DNA of 40,928 nt. Origin: a virus. Location of the stretch: the IMG/VR virus record IMGVR_UViG_3300018080_000302, positions 1 to 40,928 of that record; one strand, 5' to 3'. Below are positions 2,110 to 31,812 of this stretch, one piece after another (the stretch's first letter is position 1; every line of letters begins with the position of its first letter). Under the pieces are notes generated by a model. That model saw nothing but the letters and a program-made list of their open reading frames with translations, was not told where the DNA came from and made no database searches. A program made the translations under genes and the position numbers.

Positions 2110-2111
2110 AT

Positions 2112-2567
2112 ATGCCAAAAGAACAACAAAAAATAATTAAAAATTTATATGAAAATTCTGAACAAAATTCTATTGATATATCAAGATTAGAAAAACGTAT
2201 TATAACTAATAAACCAATTTATTTTAATAAAAATATAAGAAAAATTGAATTAGTAAATAAAGAATTATTAGATGATAGTTATAATTTTTCTGATGGAATT
2301 TCTATCAATCAAGAATTTGAAAATTTTCCTGAAAAAATAATTTCAAATGTGTATGTTCATCATCAATTTTATACAGATGATAATATTGTATTCTTGGATG
2401 GAAGTTCTATAGAAAATGCTTCTTGGGGCGGAACATATTATTATATTTGGAAAGAAAATGGTGAAAATAACTGGATATTTCAATTTGCTTTGTATAATGT
2501 ATCAAGAATAAGTGGAAATAAATATCCTCTTTATTTTGATTTAAGTTTATATTTTAATACTCCATAA
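2112..2567 (+). CDS. Small tail-appendage-like protein, 151 aa
   Basis: Starts two bases after the stop of the large tail gene. I do not recognise the family. The N-terminal ~35 residues are helical and polar (NLYENSEQNSIDISRLEKRI). They resemble the N-termini of the next two genes, which also place an EQN.ID-like motif about 20 residues in. The rest is aromatic-rich and beta-like (YYYIWKENGENNWIFQF), as in receptor-binding or fibre tip domains. A shared N-terminal helix followed by a variable beta domain suggests interchangeable appendages on one attachment site, but this is inference. Confidence 0.55.
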   Translation: MPKEQQKIIKNLYENSEQNSIDISRLEKRIITNKPIYFNKNIRKIELVNKELLDDSYNFSDGISINQEFENFPEKIISNVYVHHQFYTDDNIVFLDGSSIENASWGGTYYYIWKENGENNWIFQFALYNVSRISGNKYPLYFDLSLYFNTP

Positions 2568-2574
2568 AAATATT

Positions 2575-4044
2575 ATGAAATTTAATACTACCAAATTTAA
2601 AATTAATCATATTTATAAAACTACTGAACAGAATGATATTGATTTAACATCAAAAAATTCTGATTTATCATCTCTACCTACTAAACAAAATTCAATAAAA
2701 AATACGCATACTTTATACGATAGTGATTGGATAAAAGCTTTACCTGTTATAGATAATATTGTTCCTGATATTGTTGATTATAATGCGTATATTTTAACAT
2801 ATCCTTTAGGAAACGGTACAACTGTTGAAAATTCTTTATATCCAGCTTGCGTTACGTATTCTTTTTCTCAAATAGTAGATATATCTGAGAATTTATTTCC
2901 CTATATTAATATAGATGTGTTGACAAAAACATACTCTGATGCTCAATTTTTAATCCCACAATATTTTTCTGATTATAGTCAATGGGGATATAATTATTAT
3001 GTTTTAAAAGGTGATTCTACAACATTATATCAAGGAGAATCTCCACCAAATTCTTATAGTTCAGAATATACATCAGACGAAATAGATTCTGGAGTAACTA
3101 ATTGGAATTTAACAAGTAAATGGTTTGAAGGTGATATGTTTTTTAATGATGGTTCAAATGATAAAAAAATTAATGGAAAAATTAATTCACTAAAATCATA
3201 TTATAATGTAGTTTATGTTCCAGAAGTCGATGATTATGAGTATGAAACATTTTTCGCATACGCTTTAGATTCTGTTTCGAATTCTAATTTTACAGGAAAA
3301 GGAATTCATGTCAAGGTCACATGGACATATAATGCTGGATTAGATGAATGGGAAAAAGAAACTATAACTACCAAAAACACAACAAAATCAGTTCCTTATA
3401 AAGTTGATACAACAGCTATAACAATGTATGGGCTTTTATATCAATTAATTGGTGGCGAATATACATTCATTGGTGGCGGATATTATACAATAACACAAAC
3501 AGGAACATTCAGTCCTGCATCAACAAATACAATCGGAACTGTAGATGTTAATTATTTGCAAAATAATCGTTTATTTTATAGCACTGATAAAGCTAAACCT
3601 TTAGCAGTAAACACAAGCACAAAGCAATTTATCAATATTCCAGTGAAATCCGATTATGAAACAAACACATTGCCATACACAAAATTATATTTTGAAATAA
3701 ATAATGCAGATACTTATCCTCTCGCAAATTCTGTTGTTCCATCATTATCAACACATTCATCTAAAATGGTTAGATATATAAAAATATCAGAAAATAAATA
3801 TCAAATTAAAGTTGATGGAACATTATGTTATTTTTCTAAAGCTAATAGAGCTTCATCAGAAGAATTCGATGTTCAAGATGAAGAATATTCTCAAGTCGGT
3901 TCAACATACACAAGAGATTCTGAGAATAGAACAACGAAAAATAAAAATATTTATTTTGCTGAATTATTTCCTATTGAAGTAAAATTATTAATTACAGCTA
4001 AAAATTTAAAAAATTTTAAAAAAATATCAAAGTACACAAAATAA
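2575..4044 (+). CDS. Tail fibre / appendage-like protein, 489 aa
   Basis: Starts seven bases after the previous stop. The N-terminal stretch (KINHIYKTTEQNDIDLTSKN) matches the pattern of the neighbouring appendage genes. The body is rich in Tyr, Thr, Ser and Gly and beta-like. Around residues 295-320 is a Gly/Tyr-rich segment (IGGEYTFIGGGYYTITQTG). No catalytic motif, signal peptide or membrane segment is visible. The C-terminus turns lysine-rich (ITAKNLKNFKKISKYTK), unlike the rest, so a shifted or replaced C-terminus is possible. Placed as a fibre or receptor-binding protein by context only. Confidence 0.55.
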   Translation: MKFNTTKFKINHIYKTTEQNDIDLTSKNSDLSSLPTKQNSIKNTHTLYDSDWIKALPVIDNIVPDIVDYNAYILTYPLGNGTTVENSLYPACVTYSFSQIVDISENLFPYINIDVLTKTYSDAQFLIPQYFSDYSQWGYNYYVLKGDSTTLYQGESPPNSYSSEYTSDEIDSGVTNWNLTSKWFEGDMFFNDGSNDKKINGKINSLKSYYNVVYVPEVDDYEYETFFAYALDSVSNSNFTGKGIHVKVTWTYNAGLDEWEKETITTKNTTKSVPYKVDTTAITMYGLLYQLIGGEYTFIGGGYYTITQTGTFSPASTNTIGTVDVNYLQNNRLFYSTDKAKPLAVNTSTKQFINIPVKSDYETNTLPYTKLYFEINNADTYPLANSVVPSLSTHSSKMVRYIKISENKYQIKVDGTLCYFSKANRASSEEFDVQDEEYSQVGSTYTRDSENRTTKNKNIYFAELFPIEVKLLITAKNLKNFKKISKYTK

Positions 4045-4046
4045 TC

Positions 4047-4559
4047 ATGAAATTTAATAGTCGAAGAAAAAAAATTAAATATATTCAAAACAAACAAATT
4101 GAAAATGAAGCTCGTATCATTGAACAAAATACAAAAAATGAATTGATAGATAATGATTTTAATAAAAAAAATAAACAATTAAATTCATTAAATATTGTGC
4201 GAGAAATTGAAACTGATTGGAAAGAAATGAAATATAGAGAAGATGTTGGAGAAGTTCCTGATTATTTAGTAGACCAAAGTTATGGATGGAAAATAGAATT
4301 AGGAGAGATGCCTGAGATTTATATTCCGTTTATTAAAGTAAATATATTATATAGAAATGTTGTTAATACAGATGATAAAACACTTCATACTTATTTATAT
4401 AAAGATTCTTATAAATTAATTGAAGATTTGCCCAATGGAAACAAAAAAGTTACATTATACGCTAGTTTTAGGTGCTTTTCAGGTACATTTGATATTCCTG
4501 TAAATAATAGATTTGAAGGAAAAATTCGAATTCAAATTTTAAATCCCCTGTCTGTCTAA
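4047..4559 (+). CDS. Small tail-appendage-like protein, 170 aa
   Basis: Starts two bases after the previous stop and is the last gene of the + strand block. Its first residues (MKFN) equal those of the upstream gene, and it has a charged helical N-terminus (IENEARIIEQNTKNELIDND) before a beta-like C-terminal half. This repeats the layout of the two upstream genes. Its stop (4557-4559) lies two bases from the convergent stop of the - strand gene. Family not recognised; appendage role inferred from context. Confidence 0.5.
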   Translation: MKFNSRRKKIKYIQNKQIENEARIIEQNTKNELIDNDFNKKNKQLNSLNIVREIETDWKEMKYREDVGEVPDYLVDQSYGWKIELGEMPEIYIPFIKVNILYRNVVNTDDKTLHTYLYKDSYKLIEDLPNGNKKVTLYASFRCFSGTFDIPVNNRFEGKIRIQILNPLSV

Positions 4560-4561
4560 TT

Positions 4562-4936
4562 TTACTGAATCTCAAATCCGCAAGCATTATTTCTAATTCC
4601 ATTTTTCCAACCTGTTGTAGATGAATCAGAAATTTCTTTACCAAATGCTTTTTTAGATTGAGTTATTTTTTTATTTATACAATCTATTTTGATAACATCA
4701 ACCTTATTATAACGTAATCCGAGTAGATAAACAGCACTAACGAACTGTTGATTTGTAGAAGTCACCCATGCTTTTTCAATTAAAAAATTATATTTTTCAT
4801 ATCCAGATAATAAAATTTTTCTATCTGTTAAATTACATTCTAAACTTTTAATATTTTTATTTATTTCTTTCCATCTTGATTGTCTAAGATTTCCACCTAT
4901 AAAAATAGTATCATCATCATAAATAACTTTATACAT
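4562..4936 (-). CDS. Hypothetical protein, 124 aa
   Basis: Last gene of the long - strand block. A GGAGAG site seven bases upstream supports the ATG at 4936, which overlaps the stop of the upstream membrane-protein gene by eight bases. The sequence is mixed alpha/beta (YKVIYDDDTIFIGG near the N-terminus) with a polar C-terminus, and it has no membrane segment or metal motif. I do not recognise it. It sits beside a membrane protein and a site-2 protease gene and is probably co-transcribed with them. Confidence 0.6.
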   Translation of the reverse strand: MYKVIYDDDTIFIGGNLRQSRWKEINKNIKSLECNLTDRKILLSGYEKYNFLIEKAWVTSTNQQFVSAVYLLGLRYNKVDVIKIDCINKKITQSKKAFGKEISDSSTTGWKNGIRNNACGFEIQ

Positions 4937-5153
4937 TTTTATCTCTCCAATTTAAAATTCCATAAATATTGAGCAATAACAATCCTAATGAGCAAATCAA
5001 TAATGCCCAATTGAACATTAAAATCGCTTGAGTTCCATACATAAAATTTGCCATTGCATTAGAATAAAAACCTAAAACATTTTTTCTAGCTAACGCATAA
5101 ACTCCATAAAAAAACAAACCATTTCCTATCCATCCTAATATTTGTTCTATCAT
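4929..5153 (-). CDS. Small integral membrane protein, 74 aa
   Basis: The ATG at 5153 has GGTGG five bases upstream and forms an ATGA overlap with the protease stop, so it is preferred over the TTG at 5165. Three hydrophobic stretches (about residues 3-20, 28-45 and 47-64) suggest three membrane helices. A conserved-looking tail, LLNIYGILNWRDK, ends the protein. The size and YG/NW pattern recall single-repeat sugar-transporter-like (PQ-loop/SemiSWEET or PnuC-like) phage proteins, but this is only a resemblance. Its tight coupling to the site-2 protease hints at a partner or substrate relationship. Confidence 0.6.
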   Translation of the reverse strand: MIEQILGWIGNGLFFYGVYALARKNVLGFYSNAMANFMYGTQAILMFNWALLICSLGLLLLNIYGILNWRDKNV

Positions 5154-5776
5154 AATATCCACCAATAAATTATTAAAATTAATTGAAATACAATAAGAAA
5201 TTTAAACGATATATTCATAATTTTTGCAAACAACTTTTCCCCAATTTTTTTACGAATTGGAAACATCCATAAATATCCACCATCTAAAGCTGGTATAGGT
5301 AATAAATTTGTAATTGCTAAAAATAAATTTAATACACTTATTTGTATTATATAAGAATTTATATTTAAATAATTTATAGTCATAGCTACATTTAAATAAT
5401 TTTTTATGCACATATTTTTTATTAAAAATAAATCAATAACAATTCCATATATTATAGATTTATGCATATATAAATAACAAATACTAGCTATAAGAAAATT
5501 TACAAAAACTCCCGAACATAAAATAATAACTTGTTTCCAATATTTTAATGATGATAAACTATTAGATTTATTTATATCTTCTTCAATATCACAATATCCA
5601 CCAAAAGGTATTAAAGATATTCTCCATTCAATATCTTTCCATTTTTTTCTAAATAATATTTTTCCAAATCCAACAGAAACAGCTTTCACTTTAATTTTAA
5701 AATACAGAGATGATAATAAATGACCAAGCTCATGAAGTATAACTGATACAAAAACAATAAAAAAGTAATATAACAT
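5150..5776 (-). CDS. M50-family site-2-type intramembrane metalloprotease
   Basis: The zinc-binding motif HELGH is at residues 15-19 in the first membrane helix. The matching third-ligand motif NLLPIPALDGG is near residues 157-167, with Asp165. Both are diagnostic of M50/site-2 proteases, which cut substrates inside the membrane (RseP, SpoIVFB). The 208-residue chain has four or more hydrophobic segments and no room for a PDZ domain, like the minimal SpoIVFB-like forms. An AGGTG ribosome site precedes the ATG. The substrate is unknown; the small membrane protein directly downstream is one candidate. A phage-encoded site-2 protease is unusual. Confidence 0.85.
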   Translation of the reverse strand: MLYYFFIVFVSVILHELGHLLSSLYFKIKVKAVSVGFGKILFRKKWKDIEWRISLIPFGGYCDIEEDINKSNSLSSLKYWKQVIILCSGVFVNFLIASICYLYMHKSIIYGIVIDLFLIKNMCIKNYLNVAMTINYLNINSYIIQISVLNLFLAITNLLPIPALDGGYLWMFPIRKKIGEKLFAKIMNISFKFLIVFQLILIIYWWIL

Positions 5777-6043: not shown

Positions 6044-6214
6044 TTAAATAGCCTTTACTCCTAGAAAATCAAGATAACCCAATAATTTTATTCCCACAGA
6101 CCTTGATTTTGGTTTTTTAAAATACATTAATTGATGTGTTTTTTTGTTATAAATAGGTTTAAGTCCATTTCGTTTTAATCTGTTTATAATATCTGTTTTG
6201 TCATAGTTTTTCAT
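6044..6214 (-). CDS. Small basic hypothetical protein, 56 aa
   Basis: The ATG at 6214 is preferred to the ATG at 6241, because GGAG lies five bases upstream of it. This leaves a 14-base overlap with the glycosyltransferase stop. The product is basic, with an N-terminal helix (DKTDIINRLKRNGLKPIYNK) and a short basic C-terminal half. It could bind nucleic acid, but no motif is decisive. Confidence 0.5.
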   Translation of the reverse strand: MKNYDKTDIINRLKRNGLKPIYNKKTHQLMYFKKPKSRSVGIKLLGYLDFLGVKAI

Positions 6215-6980
6215 TTTTTCTCCATTCATTCCAATGTTCAATTAATTCTGAGGAATATTTAACCCATTCTGATAAATTATACTTTTGCATCATAATTCTT
6301 CTAATTTCTCCAAAACGATTTCTCATTTTATTATATTCATTTGGTCTATTTAAAACATAATTAGCTTCAATATTATCTGTGTAATAACATTTATATTCTT
6401 TTTCTTTCCATCTCCAAAATGAAGTTTCATGGTCTGCCATTTTTCTATCTTCATCGTATAATGAATTTATTAATAAATTAGTTTTAGCAAGGAAGAAATT
6501 TCTGCATAAATCAACAGGTTGAAATTTAATATTTTTATATTCTACTATCTTTCTACGTGGTATATCAAGATGAAAACAATCTTTTTTTTGCATATCACAT
6601 TCCCAAGCGATTCTATGCTTAATATTAAATCCACATAAAAATCTATCACTCTCTTTATTCAAAAATTCTTGTATTACAGTAAAGTCATATTTATCTTTGA
6701 ATATTATACTATCCGCACTCATCAGAATAAAAGGAATATTTAATTCATGAAATCGTTTAATGGCTATATTTCTAGCTTTTAAAGCTCCTATATCAAATTC
6801 TGTTTTTATAAATTCTCCTTTAATGTTTGTTGGAAGAATTATAGAATCTAAACAACTGGATTGATTTTGGTCAACAACGATAAAATAATAATCTTCATTC
6901 CAATACAAGGAAAGAGCGTTTAAACACTGCTGTAATAAATCATTTCTCAAAAAAGTTGTGATTAAAATTCCAATTTTCAT
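6201..6980 (-). CDS. GT-A fold glycosyltransferase (family 2-like)
   Basis: The N-terminus MKIGILITTFLRNDLLQQCL is the nucleotide-binding beta-alpha start of family 2 glycosyltransferases, and IGALKARNIAI is the usual following helix. The acidic metal site is SADS in FILMSADSIIF, a variant of DxD. The second half (about 150-259) would bind the acceptor and contains a charged DEDRKMADHETSFW region. The start overlaps the stop of the upstream bifunctional transferase by four bases. It belongs to a sugar cluster at 6.2-12.9 kb. Donor and acceptor cannot be read from the sequence. Confidence 0.75.
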   Translation of the reverse strand: MKIGILITTFLRNDLLQQCLNALSLYWNEDYYFIVVDQNQSSCLDSIILPTNIKGEFIKTEFDIGALKARNIAIKRFHELNIPFILMSADSIIFKDKYDFTVIQEFLNKESDRFLCGFNIKHRIAWECDMQKKDCFHLDIPRRKIVEYKNIKFQPVDLCRNFFLAKTNLLINSLYDEDRKMADHETSFWRWKEKEYKCYYTDNIEANYVLNRPNEYNKMRNRFGEIRRIMMQKYNLSEWVKYSSELIEHWNEWRKNEKL

Positions 6981-8917
6981 TTTATATCTGTATATCCTAA
7001 ATTTTTTAAATATTTAACTACTGGAAATGGAACACAAACAGTAGTATCTTTATATTTTATTTTTTTAGTAGAAGATAACATATCAAATAAAACTATATTA
7101 TCATTTATATATTTAGATGCTTTTGTTATATTATCAACCCCAATATGCATTGGGTAAGTAAATTTTTTATTTTTTATTGCTTCATAACATGTGTGATTTA
7201 ATAAACATACTTTAATATTATTTTTTTTCAAAATATATAGAATATCGTTTATTCTTTTATCTGCTATTCCTTTTATAGATGAAATAGCATTTATGTTTTG
7301 TGTATATTCATTTAATCTTTTTTTATATCTAATTTTATTATATTCTTTATATGCGCCAAAATTTCTATTATGATATTGATGAAATAATATAAGATTTTTA
7401 TTTATTTCTAAATTTTTTATAGTCTGTAATCTTTTATAAAAATCAGAATCTCTACCGCCCCAACCTCTATATTCTTCATCAAATCCATTTAAAAACTCAT
7501 ATGCTTCTTTTTCGCACACAAGTATACCAGAATCAACAGTAGATTTAACATCTTCTTGATTAAAATTAAGCAAAGCTTCATTATACTTATGAATATTAGA
7601 TTTTAATCGTACATATGAACACAAAAAACACTTTTTATTTTTATTATAAAAATCAATTATCTGTTCTATAAAATTATTTGGCATAAGCATGTCGATATCC
7701 ATAAATGTAAATATATTTGACTGAATCATATACTTAAACGCATTGTTTTTTGCGACGGATGCATCAAAAGATTCTTTATATTCGTAATGATATTTAAATT
7801 GAGAAATAAATTCTTTTATTTTATTAATATTAGATTCTTTTCCGACTTCTGATACACATACATTAAACTGTTTATTTTTGGACAAAGATTCATATGAATA
7901 TCGAAATCTATCCCATGCATCATCTGATAAATTCCCAACGACATATACGACATCTATCGGTTTTCTAAATTTATCGATTGTTTTATTGATTATATTTAAT
8001 AAATCTTTACAACGCTGTAAATGAGTATGTTTTGTAGCAATATAACTCAGTCCTTTTTTGATAATTTTTTTCTGTAATTTCTTATCGTTTAAAATATTTT
8101 TTGCCTTTGATATTAAATCTGAAAAATCATTTTGATATGTGATATAGCAATCAGGAAATAAATCTTGAAATCCATTATAACAATCGTTAGTGAACATTAT
8201 TCCACCACTTGCCATAATTTCAAACGCTTTAGCACAATCGATATTAAAATTTGAAATTCCATTTAAATAAATAGTATATTCTTGTAATGTATTTATATAA
8301 TTTTGTTCAAACTGTAATCCTTTAAAATCTATTAAATTTTCTTTTTCTAATTTATCAGATGCTATTTTTCTATAATAATAACTTTTAGATTTTGAATTTC
8401 CAACAAAACATATTTTATTTTGTCTTTGAATATTCGATGGTTTAAAAATATTAGTATCAACAGAAAAAGGAAACCATATGTGTGTCAATTCAGGAAAATC
8501 CTCATTGCCACGAACAGCATTATTTTTATGTCTATGAAGAATAAGATTTATATTATTATTTTTTATCCAATTATCATTTCTATATTTATGATAATCTGGT
8601 TCAATTAATATTTTAAAACAATTAAAGGTATTAAAATCTTTTGGTAACCATGATTCTTTTTCATATGAAGTAAAAAATGTTCTGTTTTTTCCAGCGACAA
8701 TTAAAACATCAAAATTGTATAAATTATATAAATCTTTCATAGTTAAATTATTATCATATGACGTTAAACAAATTTCTGGATATATTTCGTGAACATTAAC
8801 CCCATAAAATTTAGCTTCTGTGTTTGGTAGCTGATTTAAATATTGATAAAAATCAGTGTTGCAAAAATGATTAAAGCTTTTAGCTTTTGTGTATCTGTAT
8901 AAAATTAATATTTTCAT
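6977..8917 (-). CDS. Bifunctional glycosyltransferase: CgeB-like GT-B domain plus GT-A domain, 646 aa
   Basis: Residues 1-310 look like a GT-B transferase of the CgeB/YkvP type, with ICFVGNSKSKSYYYRK and a donor-site segment IDCAKAFEIMASGGIMFTND. Residues about 318-555 form a second, GT-A domain starting PIDVVYVVGNLSDD. It has the metal motif DIDML (FTFMDIDMLMPNN) and the GWGGRDSDFYKRL motif typical of galactosyl- and GalNAc-transferase C-terminal lobes. A ~90-residue tail of unknown role follows. Both neighbours overlap it by four bases. Two domains in one chain suggest two successive sugar additions to one acceptor, which is inference. Confidence 0.8.
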   Translation of the reverse strand: MKILILYRYTKAKSFNHFCNTDFYQYLNQLPNTEAKFYGVNVHEIYPEICLTSYDNNLTMKDLYNLYNFDVLIVAGKNRTFFTSYEKESWLPKDFNTFNCFKILIEPDYHKYRNDNWIKNNNINLILHRHKNNAVRGNEDFPELTHIWFPFSVDTNIFKPSNIQRQNKICFVGNSKSKSYYYRKIASDKLEKENLIDFKGLQFEQNYINTLQEYTIYLNGISNFNIDCAKAFEIMASGGIMFTNDCYNGFQDLFPDCYITYQNDFSDLISKAKNILNDKKLQKKIIKKGLSYIATKHTHLQRCKDLLNIINKTIDKFRKPIDVVYVVGNLSDDAWDRFRYSYESLSKNKQFNVCVSEVGKESNINKIKEFISQFKYHYEYKESFDASVAKNNAFKYMIQSNIFTFMDIDMLMPNNFIEQIIDFYNKNKKCFLCSYVRLKSNIHKYNEALLNFNQEDVKSTVDSGILVCEKEAYEFLNGFDEEYRGWGGRDSDFYKRLQTIKNLEINKNLILFHQYHNRNFGAYKEYNKIRYKKRLNEYTQNINAISSIKGIADKRINDILYILKKNNIKVCLLNHTCYEAIKNKKFTYPMHIGVDNITKASKYINDNIVLFDMLSSTKKIKYKDTTVCVPFPVVKYLKNLGYTDIK

Positions 8918-9510
8918 TTTTTGTCCAATTTCTTTAAATAATTTGTTCTTTTAATAGATTCTCTTCTATTTATTTTATGATTTTTTTGCAACCACAGTGC
9001 TATTTTTTTATCAGAAGCAGATGGGAATTCTTTTATTTTAGCTTCGATAGAATGCCATTTTCCAAATAAACTTGTGTAAATTCTAGAAGTATCTCTTATT
9101 AACAATTCATCGATACCATATACATTTATATATTTATTTAAAACAGATATAGAACTTTTTGGGAAAAATGCACCCCAACCCATCATTGTTTGAGCAAATT
9201 TTTTATACTTTTTTAAAGCACCTGGTTTCATATTATTAACAATTCGTTCTTTTCCAGCTTTTTTAAATTCTATATATTTTTTAAATAGTTGTTCAATATT
9301 CAAAGGTATAGCATCGTCGTCAACTGTAAAAATTATATCATTTTTTGCTTGTAAAGCTCCTAAATATCTACCCATACCACACATATTAATTTTAGTATTA
9401 TCCCATACAATTATTTCATCTATTATATTTGGATATTTTTTTAAATGACTAATAATTTTTTCTAGCTCAATTAATCTTTTATATTTTAGTAATACAGCAG
9501 TTGCTTTCAT
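8914..9510 (-). CDS. Small GT-A glycosyltransferase-like protein, 198 aa
   Basis: The metal-binding DxD motif is VDDDAIP at about residues 63-69, after IIVWDNTK and a G-rich helix (MGRYLGALQAKNDIIF), as in GT2/GT64-type transferases. An MMGWGAFFPKS segment at about 109-119 resembles the acceptor loop of exostosin-type transferases. The chain is short for the fold (usually 230 or more residues). The C-terminal ~40 residues are basic, which may mean membrane-surface association. The start overlaps the previous stop by four bases, in the same operon as the other sugar genes. Confidence 0.7.
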   Translation of the reverse strand: MKATAVLLKYKRLIELEKIISHLKKYPNIIDEIIVWDNTKINMCGMGRYLGALQAKNDIIFTVDDDAIPLNIEQLFKKYIEFKKAGKERIVNNMKPGALKKYKKFAQTMMGWGAFFPKSSISVLNKYINVYGIDELLIRDTSRIYTSLFGKWHSIEAKIKEFPSASDKKIALWLQKNHKINRRESIKRTNYLKKLDKK

Positions 9511-10310
9511 ATTATTTTAATTTCCAATTCTAAAGGTTTTTTTACTATATTTAATATTTTAGTAGTAAGATTAATAAAATCTTCATAAGTTCCATTATTA
9601 TCATTTTGAATTATATTTAACATATTGGAAACACTTAACCCACCTTCTCTTAATCCAATCAATTCATTTTTGTACGATTTTAATTCATGCCAATTTTTAA
9701 AAATACCACCCACCGAAGGATATTTTGGAAAATTATTTCTATGTTGTTTTGCTTTTTCTATTTCTTTTTTATTTATTTTTTTATTTGGAAAACAAAATTT
9801 TGCGTTTGTTACAATATAATCTACATCTTGTAAAATAGAATATCTTCTGCTAAAATTTAATTCTCTTTTATAAAAAGGTATTAGTATTTTGTTTTTTAAT
9901 ACAGTTATTTCTTTTAAATAATACGAAATAGCATATTCTCCAGACCCACTGTTGCCAACAATAGCTCCACCTATTGTTCCTGGTATACCATATAATCCTT
10001 CTAAACCAGAATAGTTATTTTCAATTGAATGCTCAACTAATCGTTGTAATTTAAAATTAGAAGAAACTAGCACTTGAACTTCATCATTATCTTTTATAAA
10101 ATAAATCCAAGATGGCATTTTCTTTAAACTAATCAGTTTTGCTACTCTTGGTTTAAAAACAACATTTGTTCCATCAGCCACAATTGATGCATCAGAGCGT
10201 TTATTTTTTATATCTTCTAATTCATCGTAATTTTCTGGAAACCATATTTCATTGACAATACATGAAAAATTAAACGAATTTTTTAAGTTGTAGTTTTTAT
10301 AGTATTTCAT
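9507..10310 (-). CDS. MurB-like FAD-binding protein with catalytic Ser replaced by Gly
   Basis: The ATG at 10310 (AAGGAAAC upstream, ATGA overlap with the HNH stop) is chosen over the upstream ATG at 10373 and gives 267 residues. MurB hallmarks appear in order: VADGTNVVF (FAD phosphate loop), GLEGLYGIPGTIGGAIVGNSG (FAD site), RRYSIL (substrate Arg region) and a C-terminal LELEIKII carrying the catalytic Glu. The motif that normally reads PSCGSVFKNP, with the proton-donor Ser, is PSVGGIFKN here. It may be a MurB with altered chemistry or an FAD-binding relative. It lies inside the glycan cluster, so a role in making or binding a nucleotide sugar is plausible. Confidence 0.75.
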   Translation of the reverse strand: MKYYKNYNLKNSFNFSCIVNEIWFPENYDELEDIKNKRSDASIVADGTNVVFKPRVAKLISLKKMPSWIYFIKDNDEVQVLVSSNFKLQRLVEHSIENNYSGLEGLYGIPGTIGGAIVGNSGSGEYAISYYLKEITVLKNKILIPFYKRELNFSRRYSILQDVDYIVTNAKFCFPNKKINKKEIEKAKQHRNNFPKYPSVGGIFKNWHELKSYKNELIGLREGGLSVSNMLNIIQNDNNGTYEDFINLTTKILNIVKKPLELEIKII

Positions 10311-10975
10311 GTTTCCTTTTTTTCTAAATTCTCTTTTGCCCAAAGCGGTTGAAGATTTGTATAATGAAAGCATTTACGTTGTTCATCTTCTTTTGTTAAA
10401 TCGAATGATGCACAAGGACGAATGTGGTCTATATGCCATTCTTGCATACCTTTACCGTTGTGACCCGTGCCATAATTATCCCATGTCATATCTCGCTTAA
10501 ATTGATTTTGTAAATGATACATTAAATAATCAAGCTCACATCCAATTAAAAGCATTGTTCTTAATGATTTATTTTTATTCTTTAATAAACCTCTTATTCT
10601 ATTTCTTAAATTATGTGCAATTTTTGCGTTTGGATTTGATTTAAATCTTTTCTTTTGTTGTTTATTTATTTTTTCACGATTATTTTTTTGATATAATTTA
10701 GATTTTTTATTAAGTTTTTCTTTATTTTTATTAATATATTTTTGTTGTGATAGTCTTATTTTATTTCTATTTAATTTATAATAATCTCTCTGATATTGTA
10801 ATGTGTGACTTTTTCCATTTATATAATTAGGATGATTTTTAGGATTTTTAAATCTATTTTTTGAAGCACAACTACTGCACATTTGTTTGCCATAATGCCA
10901 AGTGCAATAACAAATTTTTTTATCACAAACGATACAATAATAATTTTTTATTAATTTTCTTTTATTAATTGGCAT
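10307..10975 (-). CDS. Free-standing HNH endonuclease, copy 1
   Basis: The C-terminal HNH domain is WHIDHIRPCASFDL ... CFHYTNLQPLWAKEN: His-Asp-His metal/catalytic residues, then the Asn of TNLQPLW. The N-terminus has paired cysteines (CIVC, CYC, CSSC) that suggest a zinc-binding module. A long Lys/Asn/Gln-rich helical linker (about 70-125) probably contacts DNA. The domain from LIGCELDYLMYHLQ onward is shared with the genes at 20685 and 30124. No clear ribosome site precedes the ATG at 10975, which lies inside the end of the pyruvyltransferase gene. This fits a mobile gene dropped seamlessly into an operon. Confidence 0.88.
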   Translation of the reverse strand: MPINKRKLIKNYYCIVCDKKICYCTWHYGKQMCSSCASKNRFKNPKNHPNYINGKSHTLQYQRDYYKLNRNKIRLSQQKYINKNKEKLNKKSKLYQKNNREKINKQQKKRFKSNPNAKIAHNLRNRIRGLLKNKNKSLRTMLLIGCELDYLMYHLQNQFKRDMTWDNYGTGHNGKGMQEWHIDHIRPCASFDLTKEDEQRKCFHYTNLQPLWAKENLEKKET

Positions 10976-12027
10976 ATTTTATCTATAAGAGGATTAAATT
11001 TAGTTTTTCTTTCTAAATCAATAACTTTTTTTATTTTATTTCTATATTCTGGTAAATTTCTGAGTAAATGTTCTGTTATATATTTTAATCTATAATAGTA
11101 ATCATCAAATATAGAAATCCCCAATTCTGGACAATTAAGTAATTTATAAAATTCAATACTCTTTTGGTCATAATATGTGTTAATTGCAGGTGTCCCTGAT
11201 GCCCAAGACATAATGCATGAATGCATCTTTGTGGCAATCGTGCATTGACATTGAGCATATGTTTTTAATATTAAATTTATATCATCTGTGTTTATCCATT
11301 TTAAAGAGGAAATGTATTTTTGTAAATCAATCACCAATGATTGTTCTAGTGCATCATGTGTTATAAAGATAATTTCATAACCTAATTTAATCAAATTATT
11401 ACATATTGTAGAATAGTAATAAAGATTTTTTGTACGATTTTTTTGTCCTTCTTCGCCGCCATCGAATCTTCCTAATAATGGAGAATGTTGAGCAATATTT
11501 ATAGCTACTCTTTTTTCTTTCGAAACATCAGGAATATCTAAAAAACATGCTGGGTCTAATTGAAGTTCATGATTATTTACACCTATATTTTTTAAAATAT
11601 CATAAGTTCTTTTGTCACGAACAGTTGATATTGTAGATAAATTATTAATTGCTTTAATGCTTTCTTTTGCTTTATCACTAAGTTCACCACCAAAAATATC
11701 ATTTTTTAGATTATTATTGCAACCCAGCCCAACTAACATTATAGGTATTTTTATTTTTGAAAATAATTCAGATTTGCAATTAAAATACCATCCAGACTGT
11801 GTGTTTGCATTTGAATATAACCCACTTCCAGCAATCATCAAACAAGAGCTGTCTTTATTTAATTGTTCAATTCTTTGTTCAGTTAATTCATCATATTTAA
11901 CATTAAAATATGAAAAAGGAATATTTATTTGTTTTTTAATAGCAGAAGTTATAGATTCTCTAATTGCAATATCTCCCCTATTGCCTGTCATAACTGAAAA
12001 GTAAAATATTGGTTTAAATAATTTCAT
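10951..12027 (-). CDS. Polysaccharide pyruvyl transferase family protein, 358 aa
   Basis: Motifs typical of the WcaK/CsaB family are present: GNRGDIAI near residue 16, AGSGLYSN, TVRDKRTYDILKNIG in the middle, and TKMHSCIMSWASGTPAI in the C-terminal half. Family members transfer pyruvate from phosphoenolpyruvate as a ketal onto sugars of capsule, exopolysaccharide or secondary cell-wall polymers; some relatives act as other transferases. No membrane segment is visible, so it should be cytoplasmic. It is next to a DUF115-like gene and upstream of the other sugar genes, suggesting one glycan pathway. Confidence 0.8.
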   Translation of the reverse strand: MKLFKPIFYFSVMTGNRGDIAIRESITSAIKKQINIPFSYFNVKYDELTEQRIEQLNKDSSCLMIAGSGLYSNANTQSGWYFNCKSELFSKIKIPIMLVGLGCNNNLKNDIFGGELSDKAKESIKAINNLSTISTVRDKRTYDILKNIGVNNHELQLDPACFLDIPDVSKEKRVAINIAQHSPLLGRFDGGEEGQKNRTKNLYYYSTICNNLIKLGYEIIFITHDALEQSLVIDLQKYISSLKWINTDDINLILKTYAQCQCTIATKMHSCIMSWASGTPAINTYYDQKSIEFYKLLNCPELGISIFDDYYYRLKYITEHLLRNLPEYRNKIKKVIDLERKTKFNPLIDKICQLIKEN

Positions 12028-12028
12028 T

Positions 12029-12136
12029 TTAATTATAATTCTTCTTTTTCATTATTTTATTGATTTTATAGTTTACATATATTGGAATAAAAATAAAACT
12101 TATAATTATAGCTATTATAAAAATAATTAATGACAT
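12029..12136 (-). CDS. 35-residue single-pass membrane peptide
   Basis: ATG at 12136 with AGGA seven bases upstream; it overlaps the end of the DUF115-like gene by ten bases and ends two bases before the pyruvyltransferase ATG. Residues 3-20 are a continuous hydrophobic helix rich in Ile and Phe, followed by a basic tail (KINKIMKKKNYN), giving an N-out, C-in topology. Function unknown. The tight fit between two genes and the ribosome site support it. Confidence 0.5.
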   Translation of the reverse strand: MSLIIFIIAIIISFIFIPIYVNYKINKIMKKKNYN

Positions 12137-12933
12137 AATTTATTCCTAATATAATTTCTTATTTTATTATGATTAATATTTTCAATATTTTTATTTAATT
12201 TATCATAAAATTGTTGATAGTTTATTTTTGGAAAAACATTAATTTTTGAAAATATTGATACATTATAAATTTTTATTCCGTTTTTTAATTCTTTTTTAAA
12301 TGGCTCAAACCATAAATTATTCAATTCTTCTATTTTATTATAATTCCCTGTTCTATAATTCCCTCGTTCATCTTTTCCAACACCATTGTATTTATTCGTT
12401 TCCCATGTATATTTGCCAATCTCTGTATCATCATAAAAGTGAGTGTGACCATTAATATCTGTTGCATCAAAACCTAATAAATATATTTCTTTGCAATCTA
12501 AAGCAATGGCTAAATTAATAGCTTTTATTCCTGTGAGTTGACTTGTGTACCATCCTTGAATCCAAGCTTCCTTTCCCCAATAATGAGGATGCATTCCTTC
12601 TTCTTTTTCTCCCCAAATTAATTTCTTTTTGGATTTTGCTTCTTTTAATAAAATAACATTTGAATCAGTTCTAATACCATCTTTTCTTTTATATTCGCCA
12701 TCATCTTTACCTAAAATCAACGGAATATTTTTTAAATCTTTTTTGTTTGCCCCATACCAATGATAATCAGAATACATTAAAATAGTAGAATTAAAAAATT
12801 TATAGGAATAATTAACTCCAATCGTAAATTCATCTTTAATTTTATTCCAAACTGGTAACGATTCAATTTTTGTGTTCCATAAATTTTGTCTAATACTTGA
12901 GCCACTTCCAATTATTATAGCTTTATTTATCAT
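12127..12933 (-). CDS. DUF115 / MptE-like sugar-cluster protein, ~268 aa
   Basis: The N-terminus KAIIIGSGSSI is a glycine-rich nucleotide-binding loop. GVNYSYKFF and MYSDYHWYG follow, and the IYLLGFDA motif sits near the middle (about residue 155), before GHTHFYDD. This order is seen in DUF115/MptE-like proteins and in phage genes near surface-glycan clusters, several of which are suspected glycosyltransferases. The ATG at 12933 is chosen; an in-frame TTG at 12945 has poorer spacing. Exact reaction unknown. Confidence 0.6.
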   Translation of the reverse strand: MINKAIIIGSGSSIRQNLWNTKIESLPVWNKIKDEFTIGVNYSYKFFNSTILMYSDYHWYGANKKDLKNIPLILGKDDGEYKRKDGIRTDSNVILLKEAKSKKKLIWGEKEEGMHPHYWGKEAWIQGWYTSQLTGIKAINLAIALDCKEIYLLGFDATDINGHTHFYDDTEIGKYTWETNKYNGVGKDERGNYRTGNYNKIEELNNLWFEPFKKELKNGIKIYNVSIFSKINVFPKINYQQFYDKLNKNIENINHNKIRNYIRNKLCH

Positions 12934-13231
12934 CTTGACTTTCAAAATCCTTATCTGTCAAATTTTCTAACTGTTTTGTGACATCTAAATTTATTTTTCG
13001 CCAATTAGCTAAAGCACTTTGTTTAGCTATTTCTAAATCTTCAACCAACATTGCTTCTACATAAGAGCGTTTTCTTGGTTTTTCATTTTTTTCAGCATAT
13101 GGGTAAACAACGTATGTTAAATGTTCTCCTTTACTATCACAAACAAGCATAACTGAATCAATAATTGATTTAATAACTTTATATTGGTCTACCACATAAA
13201 CGACATCATTAACTCCATATTTTGATTCCAT
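12923..13231 (-). CDS. Small beta-barrel-like hypothetical protein, paralogue of the gene at 38689
   Basis: AAGGAG precedes the ATG at 13231. The first 35 residues (NDVVYVVDQYKVIKSIIDSV) match NDVVFFVHGQKVIKGIIDEI in the 141-aa gene at 38689, and both continue with VVYPY or IIRPY about 20 residues later. The pattern looks like a small SH3/KOW-type barrel followed by a helix (EDLEIAKQSALANWR). No catalytic residues are seen. The two copies lie 26 kb apart at opposite ends of the - strand block. Confidence 0.65.
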   Translation of the reverse strand: MESKYGVNDVVYVVDQYKVIKSIIDSVMLVCDSKGEHLTYVVYPYAEKNEKPRKRSYVEAMLVEDLEIAKQSALANWRKINLDVTKQLENLTDKDFESQDDK

Positions 13232-13274: not shown

Positions 13275-13571
13275 CTATTGTTTTTTCGATTTTAATCTAT
13301 TATTTACTTCATTTAAAACTCTATCAATTTCTTTTTGGTAATGGTCGATTAATTCTTTATTTAATTCGCCTTTAAGAATTGTTTTTTGCAATCTTCTTCT
13401 TTGATGTCGATTCATGACATTTTGACTCTTGGCTAAATCTTCTCTAATAAATTGAATAAAACTTGCCCCAGCTCTCAAAGTTTCATAATATTTTTGTAAT
13501 TGAACAAGTTGTTTTTTCTGTGCTTTTGATTGTTTCTTTTTTAAAAAATACTGTTTGATTTTTTTAATCAT
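13275..13571 (-). CDS. Basic helical hypothetical protein, 98 aa
   Basis: AAGGAG lies seven bases upstream of the ATG at 13571, which overlaps the Rad50 C-half stop by eight bases. The chain is highly charged with 11 Lys in the first 20 residues, all helical, with an RHQRRRLQK cluster in the middle. It may bind nucleic acid or support the neighbouring SbcCD-type complex. No family recognised. A 43-base non-coding gap follows on its 3' side. Confidence 0.6.
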   Translation of the reverse strand: MIKKIKQYFLKKKQSKAQKKQLVQLQKYYETLRAGASFIQFIREDLAKSQNVMNRHQRRRLQKTILKGELNKELIDHYQKEIDRVLNEVNNRLKSKKQ

Positions 13572-14238
13572 TTCTTGTCTCCTTTTTAGGTCTTCCTCTT
13601 TTTGTTTTTTTAGGAACAGATTTAATATTATTATCTTTTTTTATAACAATTGGATTCAAAACACTTTCTACAACTTCGTCTCTATGTGTTATCCAAAATA
13701 TTTGTCTATTTGTTTTACTTTGCGTTTCTTTAACAAATTCTATCATCTTTTTAGCTGTTTCAGGATTATCAAGCATCTTGGCAGGTTCGTCTAAAAATAA
13801 AAATCCTTTATTTTGTGATACTTCTAATAACACAAATCGTAATGCTAATGAAATAATATCACAACTACCACCGCCTCTTGTCTCTAAAATATTATGTGAC
13901 TCTTGCATGTTGGGCGTTTTAATACAAAAATTCATTTCAGGAATATTGCCACGTTTACCGAAATCTAATTCAAATTTATAATCATTGCTTTGATGAACGT
14001 ATTGTAAAGCGTGAGTTGTTATTGTTTCAAAAATATCTTTAATTAATTCTTTTGTTGATTTTTGAACGATATTTAAAAGTTCAACTGATTTTGTGTTTAT
14101 AATTTGATTCGATTTTAATTCAGACAGTTTTTCTGTAGATTCTTGATAGTTTTGTTCAAGAACTTCTACTTTCCCTTTTAAAGAAGCAACATTCTCTTCT
14201 AAATTTTTAATAGATTGTTCAATGTTATTTAGATTCAT
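13564..14238 (-). CDS. sbcC: SbcC/Rad50-like ATPase, C-terminal half (signature, Walker B, H-loop), with AT-hook
   Basis: Residues 1-65 are coiled coil. The C-terminal ABC-ATPase lobe follows: signature loop TRGGGSCDIIS (residues 120-130), Walker B FLFLDEP with Asp150 and Glu151, and the H-loop THRDE with His185. There is no Walker A; it is encoded separately at 15904-17019. The protein ends in KKTKRGRPKKE, an AT-hook core. Together with the other half and SbcD it should form a Mre11-Rad50-type nuclease complex that processes DNA ends. The coil here is much shorter than in the N-half. Confidence 0.85.
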   Translation of the reverse strand: MNLNNIEQSIKNLEENVASLKGKVEVLEQNYQESTEKLSELKSNQIINTKSVELLNIVQKSTKELIKDIFETITTHALQYVHQSNDYKFELDFGKRGNIPEMNFCIKTPNMQESHNILETRGGGSCDIISLALRFVLLEVSQNKGFLFLDEPAKMLDNPETAKKMIEFVKETQSKTNRQIFWITHRDEVVESVLNPIVIKKDNNIKSVPKKTKRGRPKKETRND

Positions 14239-14382: not shown

Positions 14383-14606
14383 TTCAATTTCTCCTCAATT
14401 TCAGCAATCTTTTCTGTTAATTCTTTATTCATTTCTTCAATTTTATCATCTAATTCATCCTCTGAAATATTTAATTCTTTTAATTCAACAAGAATCTTAT
14501 TTTTTTCTTCTTTAAGATTCTTTTCTTTTTCCTCTAATCTAATTAACTCTTCTTTATTTGTTTGAACTTTTTCTTGTAAATCTTTAATTTTATTTAAATG
14601 ATTCAT
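14379..14606 (-). CDS. 75-residue pure coiled-coil protein in the SbcCD module
   Basis: Nearly the whole chain is charged heptad-like helix (EKVQTNKEELIRLEEKEKNL, and EELNKELTEKIAEI-like near the end). It starts inside the SbcD stop (ATGA overlap) and lies two genes before the Rad50 C-half. In an ordinary SbcC, the region between the zinc hook and the C-terminal ATPase lobe is a returning coil. The N-half here stops at the hook and the C-half has only ~65 coil residues, so this protein could supply missing returning coil. That is inference from order and composition. Confidence 0.65.
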   Translation of the reverse strand: MNHLNKIKDLQEKVQTNKEELIRLEEKEKNLKEEKNKILVELKELNISEDELDDKIEEMNKELTEKIAEIEEKLK

Positions 14607-15514
14607 TTCACTTCTCCAATTTTATTTAATAAATAATCAACAATTTCTTTGTCTACTTTTTGTTCTTTTCCGATTTTCACTATTTGTTCTGAAATAGACA
14701 TTGATTGAAAATCAACATTTTTCAATGATTGTAAAAATTCTTTAATGTCTTTTTTATTTGCTTTTAATTCTTCGTATTTTGATAAATCAAATATTTCGTT
14801 TGCTTTTTTAGCTGATTCTAAATCAATTTTCATTATATCATGCGCAGTATCAATAATTGCCACTTGAGGTGTGTGCTGTTCAGTTATTGAAGACCTGCCA
14901 ATAGAATTAGTATTTAAAAATCGTGTTCCATTAATAATTTCATCAAAATTCGTATGAAAATGAGAACACAGAACCAAATCATAATTTGTTTGCAAATCTT
15001 TAGCACAAATATGACTTACTTCTTTAAAAAATGGTTTAATACTAATAAACGCATGAGAAATAGCTATGGTAAATTTATTCTTTTTTCTATGTTTTAATCC
15101 CTTTTCTTTAAAATCTTCTTCGATTGTGTGATAATATTTATAGCCTTTAATATAATAGTTTGTGCCATCGATTGTGTCTAATAGCATTATGCTTTTGCTT
15201 CTTCTAAAAATATGCGCTAAAGCACTTGCCTTTGATACTTCCCAATTATGTCCTGTCATATCATGATTTCCAGAAACGATATGCCAATCTATTTTTGATG
15301 CTTCTACTTTATCCACGAAATCATCTATAATTGTGTTACTTACATTTGGAGAATCAAACAAATCACCACCACAAATAATAAACTTACAATCTTGTCTCTT
15401 TGCAATTTGAATAATTTCATCAATCTTTTCTAAACAACTTTGATAATAATTATCTAAACGATTAACAGGATTTTTCCCCTTAATATGAATGTCTGTGCAA
15501 TATAAAAATTTCAT
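14603..15514 (-). CDS. sbcD: SbcD/Mre11-like metallophosphoesterase nuclease subunit
   Basis: The five calcineurin-fold metal motifs are complete: TDIH (residues 7-10), GGDLFD (49-54), GNHD (82-85), a mid-chain SHAF and SHFHT. The 303-residue length fits phage gp47/SbcD proteins. A C-terminal helical segment (about 245-303) probably docks on the Rad50 coils. It sits between the two halves of the Rad50-like ATPase. The start overlaps the upstream gene by four bases. Predicted role: dsDNA exonuclease/ssDNA endonuclease in end processing and recombination-dependent replication. Confidence 0.92.
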   Translation of the reverse strand: MKFLYCTDIHIKGKNPVNRLDNYYQSCLEKIDEIIQIAKRQDCKFIICGGDLFDSPNVSNTIIDDFVDKVEASKIDWHIVSGNHDMTGHNWEVSKASALAHIFRRSKSIMLLDTIDGTNYYIKGYKYYHTIEEDFKEKGLKHRKKNKFTIAISHAFISIKPFFKEVSHICAKDLQTNYDLVLCSHFHTNFDEIINGTRFLNTNSIGRSSITEQHTPQVAIIDTAHDIMKIDLESAKKANEIFDLSKYEELKANKKDIKEFLQSLKNVDFQSMSISEQIVKIGKEQKVDKEIVDYLLNKIGEVK

Positions 15515-15735: not shown

Positions 15736-15907
15736 CTATTTCCTCTAATTTATCATCACGACCAAGTTTAAAAGAAATTTTTCCATTATCTCCATAAACT
15801 TCATATCCTGCTAAGACTAACGCAGAAATTAAATCTTTCCAATCTTCTTTTTGCATTAAATCATAGCCAGTAAATCTATCTATAGTTATTTTATATCTTT
15901 TCATCAT
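15728..15907 (-). CDS. Small hypothetical protein, 59 aa
   Basis: The ATG at 15907 overlaps the stop of the Rad50 N-half (ATGA), and a TGA at 15728-15730 ends it inside the next gene's start. The product is a compact alpha/beta sequence (RYKITIDRFTGYDLMQKEDW, then GYEVYGDNGKISFKLGRDD) with helix 19-33 flanked by strands. No family recognised. Coupled overlaps on both sides make it very likely real. Confidence 0.7.
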   Translation of the reverse strand: MMKRYKITIDRFTGYDLMQKEDWKDLISALVLAGYEVYGDNGKISFKLGRDDKLEEIDE

Positions 15908-17019
15908 TCATTTTCCATCTCTCTGTTGCACAATGGGCAAATTTTTTGTTCTTTCCAAATTGCATCTAATTCAGCCTCATTATTAGCTAAATTTTCTTTT
16001 ACAAATTTTTTATCCAAAGCAAGATTTTGTTTCGCTTCAATATTTGCAATGATTAATTCATCTAATCTACGCAATTTTTGCAAAGTTTCTGCACTTTTTA
16101 CAAGCTCTTTTTCATCAAATTTAACACTTTTTACAAGTCGAGTTTTCTTCTTAGTTACTCTAATTTCATCATTTATTGCTTCTAATTCACAGAAAAGATG
16201 CTGAAGTATTTTTAATTTTTCGGCCTTTTCTCTTAACTTTTTTACTTTATCTTCACTAATAATTTGAATTTGAGAAGCTCTATCTTTAATCTCTTTAGTT
16301 TTTGTTTTATTCTCTTTTAATTGCTCGCTTAAATTTTTTAATGATTCATAAATAGCAACGTCTTCTTTTAATTTATTATATTCTTCGTTTACACTACTAA
16401 GTTGTTTTTTTAATGTTTTGTAGTGTAAAGAACATTCGACTAATTGTTCTTCTTGTTTGTTTGATAGTTCTTCAGTTTCAGAAATTTCTCGTTTAAATTT
16501 TAAACTATATTTATTTAGTTCTTTAAATAATTTATCTAACACTTCATTTCCTGTTAGTTTATTAAATAATTTTGACCTAAAAGAAGCTGGTTTATCTAAT
16601 AAAAAAGGCAATTTAATTTGTTCAGAAACATTAAGATTAATTTTATCGCTATCTATTTCTATTTCTGACAAACCAATTGCCTGTTGAACTTCATCTGGTA
16701 TTACTTTTCCAAAAGAATCAAATATTTTTTCTTCTATATCTTTATGTCTTAGAATATATCTATTTAAAGTATTTGACCTTATTCTTTCAATTTCAAATCC
16801 ATTATCCAACCAAATTGTTACAGATGTTTCTTTTGTTCCTTCTCTTCTATAACTTTGTTCTGATATATTTGCGTTGAATAAAATCCATTCAATAGCTCGT
16901 CTAATACAGCTTTTTCCTGCATCTGATTGACCAGTTATTATATTGACATCAGCATTAAACTTAATCTCAAAATTCTCATGAGCTTGCCAATTCTTCAATT
17001 GTATTTTTTTAATAAACAT
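15904..17019 (-). CDS. sbcC: SbcC/Rad50-like ATPase, N-terminal half (Walker A, coiled coil, zinc hook)
   Basis: Residues 1-170 form the N-terminal ATPase lobe: LKNWQAHENFEIKF, Walker A GQSDAGKS (30-37), then VTIWLDNGFEIERIR. A long coiled coil runs from about 175 to 355. The chain ends immediately after the zinc-hook motif CPLC (361-364), seven residues before the stop. In one-piece SbcC/Rad50 the hook is at the middle and a returning coil plus Walker B lobe follow; here these are separate genes downstream. With GGATGA-style overlap to a small gene and SbcD two genes on, the operon encodes a split Mre11-Rad50-type complex. Confidence 0.9.
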   Translation of the reverse strand: MFIKKIQLKNWQAHENFEIKFNADVNIITGQSDAGKSCIRRAIEWILFNANISEQSYRREGTKETSVTIWLDNGFEIERIRSNTLNRYILRHKDIEEKIFDSFGKVIPDEVQQAIGLSEIEIDSDKINLNVSEQIKLPFLLDKPASFRSKLFNKLTGNEVLDKLFKELNKYSLKFKREISETEELSNKQEEQLVECSLHYKTLKKQLSSVNEEYNKLKEDVAIYESLKNLSEQLKENKTKTKEIKDRASQIQIISEDKVKKLREKAEKLKILQHLFCELEAINDEIRVTKKKTRLVKSVKFDEKELVKSAETLQKLRRLDELIIANIEAKQNLALDKKFVKENLANNEAELDAIWKEQKICPLCNREMENE

Positions 17020-22501: not shown

Positions 22502-22996
22502 TTAAATCGCAAAATCTTCACATTGTCTAAAAAAATCTCCACAAATTGTATTGATTCGCCTTCCATATTTTTGTGTTCCAAACCCTGCTAAATTATCATC
22601 TAATATCCAATGCCTTTTTGCCCCCAATCGAATAGCGTGTTCAAAAACCCAATTTCTTGCAGGAATACTTCCATGCCCTAAATTTTTAAAAGGCAACACT
22701 AATATTTTATCTTTTGAAATATATTTAGCATATTGTGTAAACTCTTGTGGCTCGATAACTATTTTATAATCAATATTTAATTTTTCTAATGCTTTGCTTG
22801 TTGGTCGTTTTTTATATCGACCTTTTGAAATAATATAAACTGGATATTTAGGAAACATAGACGTTTTTGTGTTTCTATTATATTCAACTACATCACTGAT
22901 ATCATAACTATTTCGAAGTTCTGTGTTACGTGTTGGTACATAAAACTTCGGCATATCAGTCCATTCTTTTTTCCATTGTAGATTATTTTTCTTCAT
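22502..22996 (-). CDS. TAGT-like glycosyltransferase, apparently truncated (164 aa)
   Basis: From about residue 48 the sequence follows the TET-associated glycosyltransferase pattern: YPVYIISKGR, DYKIVIEPQEFTQYAKYI, ILVLPFKNLGHGSIPARNW, FEHAIRLGAKRHWILDDN (DD metal site), ending at CEDFAI. In the family as I know it, CEDFA is followed by well over 100 further residues with more sugar- and acceptor-binding motifs; here a TAA follows at once. The 204 downstream bases do not continue it in any frame. TAGTs glycosylate 5-hydroxymethylated bases in phage DNA. This one is probably inactive or altered. The ATG at 22996 overlaps the polymerase stop. Confidence 0.7.
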   Translation of the reverse strand: MKKNNLQWKKEWTDMPKFYVPTRNTELRNSYDISDVVEYNRNTKTSMFPKYPVYIISKGRYKKRPTSKALEKLNIDYKIVIEPQEFTQYAKYISKDKILVLPFKNLGHGSIPARNWVFEHAIRLGAKRHWILDDNLAGFGTQKYGRRINTICGDFFRQCEDFAI

Positions 22997-31551: not shown

Positions 31552-31812
31552 TCACTGTCTCCTTAAAAACCTTTCATAAAAAAAATTATCTGTTTCAATT
31601 TCTTCCGCATAAGTTCTTGAATTTTCTTTAACAATAGATTCAATAAATTTTTTAGCAGAATATTCTTGTCTTAATTTTTCTTGTTCAGGATATTCGCTGT
31701 CAAAATAACGAAATTCTTGATACCATAGTATATCATCCTCTTCTATTAAATTGTTTTTACAAAGTTCTGAATAATTTCTAAAATCATTTTCTAAATTAAA
31801 CAATTTATTCAT
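31552..31812 (-). CDS. Acidic hypothetical protein, 86 aa
   Basis: An acidic helical chain (LFNLENDFRNYSELCKNNLI, then YPEQEKLRQEYSAKKFIESI) with many aromatic residues. No motif recognised. The stop-start geometry with both neighbours (one-base overlap with the HNH/NUMOD gene, one base before the next) marks it as part of the operon. Confidence 0.6.
   Translation of the reverse strand: MNKLFNLENDFRNYSELCKNNLIEEDDILWYQEFRYFDSEYPEQEKLRQEYSAKKFIESIVKENSRTYAEEIETDNFFYERFLRRQ

Follow-up and report, generated by a model that had tools for sequence, protein, structure and literature searches.

Variable phage islands that carry glycosyltransferases are already known. Pelagimyophages and cyanomyophages have a host recognition cluster, a hypervariable island with glycosyltransferases (PMC7029224), and jumbo phages and cyanophages have clusters for modification of capsular polysaccharides (PMC7824862). 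Virion glycosylation is described for mycobacteriophages (Freeman et al. 2023, as cited in PMC12619734), and chlorovirus PBCV-1 has an autonomous glycosylation system with, for example, the three-domain protein A111/114R (PMC7826918).

The window analyzed here is the whole of IMG/VR record IMGVR_UViG_3300018080_000302 (40,928 bases; GC of 26%; linear ends), which is probably a genome fragment of an uncultivated and very AT-rich phage. Its minus strand has a tight operon of six sugar-related genes (6201-12945). Like the host recognition cluster, the operon is a nonsyntenic variable island in a fixed place near tail genes, has several glycosyltransferases plus sugar enzymes, and carries cargo that differs between related phages. 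However, the host recognition cluster is within the structural region of T4-like phages and contains tail-fiber genes (PMC7029224), whereas the island in the window is outside the tail genes, on the opposite strand, at the end of a replication run, and has a GT42/DUF115-type framework gene. Because it is outside the structural region, we do not classify the island as a host recognition cluster but only liken it to one in how it may work. Phage islands of the type described here and the capsular polysaccharide clusters have in common epimerase, cupin, nucleotidyltransferase, and several glycosyltransferase families, and both vary between related viruses. But the latter have up to 15 genes and are mainly in jumbo cyanophages (PMC7824862), whereas the window has a pyruvyltransferase and a MurB-like gene and encodes no recognizable enzyme of sugar-nucleotide synthesis.

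The mycobacteriophage system, as cited in PMC12619734, likewise has phage-encoded glycosyltransferases and a capsid or tail protein as the proposed acceptor; there the glycan has been demonstrated, whereas that of the window is predicted, with other gene families and in a different lineage. Likeness to PBCV-1 is in organization only: both have virus-encoded glycan assembly with a fused multidomain glycosyltransferase, but PBCV-1 is a eukaryotic virus with N-glycans. Unlike the gtr-type lysogenic conversion cassettes of temperate phages, which have a GtrA flippase beside a bactoprenol glucosyltransferase, the window yielded neither a GtrA match nor an integrase. DNA-glycan hypermodification systems need an enzyme of the thymidylate-synthase type or a TET/JBP enzyme, and neither was found in the records, which are fragments. 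Relative to known systems, the novelty lies in the lineage, in a framework of GT42/DUF115 type, in placement convergent with the tail genes, in a recurring fusion protein that has a LicD-like domain, and in the pairing of a MurB-like protein lacking the catalytic serine with a GT-B glycosyltransferase.

Organization of the operon and its predicted enzymes

The operon and the features that flank it are, in order of position:

1-4559, plus strand: tail genes (large tail protein and downstream structural proteins), convergent with the operon
4562-5165, minus strand: two small conserved genes (for a 78-aa membrane protein and a 124-aa protein), the last of the run ahead of the convergent tail genes
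5150-5776, minus strand: M50 (site-2-type) membrane protease; PF02163 4e-36, HExxH and PALDGG intact
6044-6241, minus strand: 65-aa ORF after the GT2 gene; 62% identity to an ORF in the same position in G009
6201-6980, minus strand: GT2-like glycosyltransferase, 259 aa, last sugar gene and framework marker; PHROG 2456, E 9e-8
6977-8917, minus strand: three-domain protein, 646 aa, with GT-B, GT-A, and LicD-like C-terminal domains
8914-9510, minus strand: probable small GT-A type glycosyltransferase, 198 aa, with a VDDD motif and a weakly exostosin-like N-terminus
9507-10310, minus strand: MurB-like FAD protein, paired with the GT-B domain that comes next (in 6977-8917)
10307-10975, minus strand: zinc-ribbon and HNH endonuclease of homing type; PHROG 28061 2e-6, endonuclease VII family 0.002
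10951-12027, minus strand: predicted polysaccharide pyruvyl transferase (WcaK/CsaB-like); PF04230 5.8e-25
12029-12136, minus strand: 35-aa ORF, read directly from the sequence, that encodes one predicted transmembrane helix and overlaps or abuts the genes on either side
12127-12933, minus strand: GT42/MptE (DUF115)-superfamily protein, first sugar gene and framework marker (TTG-start ORF, 12127-12945)

The minus-strand run comprises genes for a 5'-3' exonuclease, a ClpP-type head protease, primase, RecA/UvsX, ligase, and pieces of SbcC and SbcD, followed by the sugar genes. The operon is the downstream end of this replication and recombination run and is co-oriented with it, which makes transcription together with early or middle genes probable. 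The earlier note placed the operon beside tail genes, and it is adjacent to them, but they are on the other strand and convergent, and nearness is not co-transcription. Each ORF of the six-gene run that the note described is present, on the minus strand and of the expected size, and most neighboring genes overlap by a few bases. Two further ORFs are within the run. The 35-aa ORF fills the 100-base gap at 12028-12126, making the run truly continuous, and the HNH gene (motif EWHIDHIRP..NLQPLW..EN), between the pyruvyltransferase and MurB-like genes, is probably a selfish insert rather than a glycan gene. More HNH-type nucleases are encoded elsewhere in the window (30124-30900 and 31812-32459), as are probable inteins (LAGLIDADG type) in a large DNA-polymerase-exonuclease-like protein (22983-26201) and in the 5'-3' exonuclease (39111-40904).

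The first sugar gene encodes a 272-aa protein for which a start at ATG 12933 is likelier than at TTG 12945. Its match to PF01973 (DUF115/MptE), the family to which it had been likened, is only 0.009 and is exceeded by that to PHROG 4603 ("alpha-2,3-sialyltransferase"; 8e-13), a match also found in 9 of 10 homologues; kinship to GT42/DUF115 holds at the superfamily level. In a Foldseek comparison with the PDB, an AlphaFold model built from 10 sequences (pLDDT 74, pTM 0.79) had the CST-II sialyltransferase as best match (E 3e-3, prob 0.93) and an MptE-type HPPK as the second (E 5e-2, prob 0.87). Because TM-scores are low (0.37), we claim for the modeled protein only membership in the GT42/DUF115 (Maf/MptE) superfamily. 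A previous model from five sequences (pLDDT 59) had meaningless matches and was replaced. Transferases of the GT42 and Maf/DUF115 types work in the cytosol and often transfer nonulosonic acids, and the product of 12127-12933 is probably a cytosolic glycosyltransferase. In another phage, a 494-aa ORF (L058:9857-11341) contains a 28% identical homologue of the GT42-like protein and lies among head and structural genes with no glycan genes visible beside it.

The PF04230 match of the predicted pyruvyltransferase scores 89 bits against a curated cut-off of 25.3 and spans positions 1-279 of the 280 in the profile. Matches to the NCBIfam models for WcaK and CsaB (1e-13 and 1e-12) are under their equivalog cut-offs. 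PF04230 proteins are also in the islands of G007 and L054.

Two of the three proposed glycosyltransferase genes, those for the 259- and 646-aa proteins, are backed by family matches, and the third by motif only. The 259-aa protein matches Pfam GT2 at only 0.046 but a profile of the TagF GT2 domain at 2e-6. The 198-aa protein had no family match (exostosin-2 is weak, E 0.76) and, on its VDDD motif and this exostosin-like similarity, is a probable GT-A enzyme. In the 646-aa protein, the fusion of GT-B and GT-A domains was correctly recognized but a third domain was overlooked. Residues 1 to ∼310 are GT-B (PF13524, 8e-8), and residues ∼320-545 are a GT-A domain of GT7/GT2 type (PF02709 GT7C, 1e-11; GT2 signal, 0.0014) with the motifs DID and WGGRDSD, as in GT7 galactosyltransferases. 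Residues ∼545-646 form a C-terminal domain without the acidic DxD of LicD, which suggests that it is binding or degenerate. Kinship to LicD, weak in a pairwise profile comparison (9.5% probability), is supported by weak matches of a profile of this domain to LicD domains outside the profile (L055 454-1065, E 1.4e-4; L053, i-E 0.003); we still call the domain LicD-like, not LicD. It is common to the C-termini of fused proteins of REL2, G009, and L053.

The MurB homology proposed for the 9507-10310 product extends over nearly the full length, but the catalytic Ser/Cys of MurB is missing. The match to NCBIfam PRK13905 (6e-26) is under the equivalog cut-off (91 vs 259 bits). The start at 10310, where the gene overlaps the HNH stop as ATGA, is supported by alignment with a relative, whose protein begins at the matching methionine. 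In MurB, a Ser or Cys is the proton donor, and an Arg and a Glu are also of the active site. Both phage copies share with MurB (UDP-N-acetylenolpyruvoylglucosamine reductase) homology in the FAD domain and C-terminus, but have Gly at the catalytic position (GGIF instead of GSxF) where five solved MurBs have Ser or Cys. The FAD-binding GIPGxxGGA motif, the conserved active-site Arg, and the C-terminal Glu are kept. No MurA partner or other EPSP-type gene matched over the cut-off in ten records, all fragments, and with neither Ser/Cys nor such a gene, the canonical MurB reaction is unlikely on the sequence.

Among 13 records searched, only the window and L055 have the MurB-like protein. The L055 homologue is 43% identical, has the same Ser-to-Gly change, follows LicD and cytidylyltransferase genes, and is directly upstream of a gene of the same GT-B family (1861-2826; 40% identical to the GT-B half of the 646-aa protein), there a separate gene. 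Joint retention of the pair in two distant phages, both times with this substitution, points to a specific function. One rather unlikely possibility is that the pair is a traveling two-gene module, in which a MurB-derived flavoenzyme without the proton donor would oxidize, dehydrogenate, or remodel a sugar or an enolpyruvyl- or pyruvyl-sugar that the GT-B would then transfer into a virion glycan, a chemistry not known from phages. A tblastn search of 50,697 phage records with the MurB-like protein returned 19 records at 23-32% identity, which we judged to be ordinary bacterial murB, unannotated and some in bacterial-looking contigs.

A conserved slot with exchanged cargo

Searches seeded with the recombinase, a kinase, and the 272-aa protein found relatives, all of them uncultivated phages whose contigs are fragments. 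Seven have an island of sugar enzymes in the same slot and in the identical orientation, convergent with tail genes: the close relatives REL2 (G002), G009, G007, and L053, and the more distant L054, L055, and L057, which have the same island layout. Their recurrence in one position rules out chance or artifact. The contig of REL1 (G001) ends just inside the island, and L056, from a different sample, is overlapping sequence of the L055 kind. G008 and G010 have core genes in common with these phages but no island in the sequence examined.

The framework is conserved. Each of the seven island-bearing relatives has a GT42/MptE-type protein, and identities to the 272-aa protein at the same location are 30-65%. 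In close relatives, islands open with the 272-aa family directly after the region of the gene for the C-terminal half of SbcC, and in the window, REL2, G009, and L053, the sugar genes end with the same GT2 family (29-31% identity to the 259-aa protein, same position).

Cargo between these markers is exchanged. REL2 has sulfotransferases, LicD, a cytidylyltransferase, SDR, UPF0047, and an 898-aa LicD/GT2/GT fusion. G009 has cupins, an epimerase, an FkbM-like protein (identified by eye), a fucosyltransferase, a sulfotransferase, radical SAM, and a 779-aa fusion of capsule synthesis and GT-B domains. G007 has DUF115, GT2, GT-D, a pyruvyltransferase, a B12/radical SAM enzyme with an intein, GT-B, and a methyltransferase. 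In pairwise comparisons, the four complete islands have zero or one nonframework sugar gene in common, the sole case being a cupin shared by G007 and G009 (REL1 also has a cupin), whereas genes flanking the islands have median identities of 34-49% between phages. Exchange is not universal, as L053 keeps cargo like that of REL2. Conservation of the cluster in relatives had been set beforehand as a test, and it is position and framework that are conserved, not exact gene content. In GC and GC3, the islands differ little from the genomes that carry them, indicating that cargo was not freshly imported; on this base composition, recent horizontal acquisition was rejected.

Nucleases near the GT42-like gene could promote cargo exchange. 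An HNH gene is close to it in the window, in REL1 (after it), and in L055 (before it), and G007 has an SNase-type nuclease there. The HNH intein in the B12/radical SAM enzyme of the G007 island (L023:18705-20000, continuing into L024) means that mobile elements are also within cargo genes.

In the window, SbcC is split over one ORF for the N half (15904-17019) and another for the C half (13564-14238), with SbcD between (14603-15514), an order that relatives share, and the N half in REL1 has an intein-like insert (L008:5056-7470, by eye). The first tail gene of the window has 41% identical homologues in REL2, G009, and G007, and that of G009 has a LamG-type lectin domain. The 78-aa membrane protein (4929-5165) resembles about half of a PnuC/NMN transporter and occurs in G009 (65% identity), REL2, and L053. 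The M50 protease is at the same location in REL2 and L053; G008 also has it, with no adjoining glycan genes in available sequence, making its part in a glycan system doubtful. A conserved P-loop kinase (36644-37267) is 50-61% identical in close relatives and has 28-33% identical homologues in Bacteroidales and other MAGs. Scans of genomes for a host with alignments of the GT42-like protein and the kinase found only such remote kinases, in Bacteroidales and others, and scans of viral contigs with single proteins and the ligase found no relative. Neither a DNA search nor tblastn with three island proteins had a match in the 50,697 phage records, thus the lineage is without a cultured match in that collection.

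Candidate acceptors of the glycan

The enzyme families and the slot conserved in relatives bear out the proposal of a dedicated glycan operon. Our preferred, though tentative, reading of the sequences is that the locus is a hypervariable island for glycan assembly, exchangeable in content, in a lineage of low-GC tailed phages, with soluble cytosolic enzymes and a virion protein as the most likely acceptor. The operon, its enzyme families, the conserved slot, the exchange of cargo, and the lack of detected genes for membrane export or base modification come from the computation itself; enzyme activities, their order of action, and the acceptor we infer as follows. Soluble island enzymes would use sugar nucleotides in the cytoplasm, with the GT42/DUF115-type and GT2 transferases as the conserved framework. 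The chain would be extended by the fused GT-B/GT-A/LicD-like protein and the small GT-A enzyme, an acidic pyruvate ketal would be added by the pyruvyltransferase, and the MurB-like flavoprotein may modify a sugar or sugar nucleotide. With a virion protein (tail or capsid) as acceptor, each phage would get its own sugar coat.

A hydropathy scan of the islands found no sugar enzyme with several membrane helices; two GT42-like proteins have a borderline hydrophobic stretch. No GtrA was found in 10 records, all fragments, and no Bac_transf initiating transferase exceeded the cut-off. Seven related records have no gene of the thymidylate-synthase family, and the only TET match was subthreshold and spurious, inside a UvsX ORF. 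Soluble enzymes and a lack of GtrA, initiating transferase, and base-modifying enzymes, provisional as these absences are in fragmentary contigs, lean toward an acceptor protein in the cytosol, for which a virion protein is the simplest candidate. Flagellin is glycosylated in the cytoplasm by DUF115/Maf proteins, a precedent for protein acceptors.

A second possibility, which we take seriously but consider somewhat unlikely, is that the island remodels LOS, teichoic acid, or capsule on the host surface, either in infection or in pseudolysogeny, to block superinfection by competing phages. Against it, no GtrA, initiating transferase, or evident membrane-embedded glycan enzyme was detected, nor was an integrase found in the window. 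Absent export genes are nevertheless compatible with action on the surface, since enzymes of the GT42 and LicD types also modify LOS or teichoic acid from the cytosolic side and do so with no flippase of their own. Lysogeny-like states are possible as well, given the tyrosine recombinases of three relatives. In bacteria, surface glycans are the targets of the GT42, LicD, cytidylyltransferase, and pyruvyltransferase families, and orientation with early or middle genes, not tail genes, suits early action. Similar variable islands rich in glycosyltransferases have been read this way in pelagimyophages (PMC7029224) and jumbo cyanophages (PMC7824862).

Two other explanations are far less probable. 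That the transferases glycosylate hypermodified bases of phage DNA and so evade restriction would suit an island co-oriented with replication genes, and phages with DNA-glycan transferases have been described (Pyle et al. 2024, as cited in PMC12619734); nevertheless, this is very improbable given the missing thymidylate-synthase-family gene, the spurious TET match, and a cargo of pyruvyl-, sulfo-, and methyltransferases that resembles glycan chemistry of the surface type. Most improbable is that the patchy cargo, of families common in bacteria, is host-derived clutter acquired recently and without coordinated phage function. Genes overlap tightly, GC and GC3 are near genome values, and slot, framework genes, and the fused-protein domain are conserved in several phages, with the slot largely refuting this explanation.

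The operon is short, its products are apparently soluble, and it is suited to expression in a laboratory strain, which makes the prevalence and diversity of virion glycosylation directly testable. For a new enzyme activity, the MurB-like module offers a concrete candidate. If the reading of an island that glycosylates virions is right, then a phage lineage keeps a dedicated and exchangeable slot for glycan assembly, in which decorations (pyruvate, sulfate, phosphodiester, and methyl) vary per phage. This would be a phage counterpart of O-antigen variation and would bear on adsorption and superinfection.
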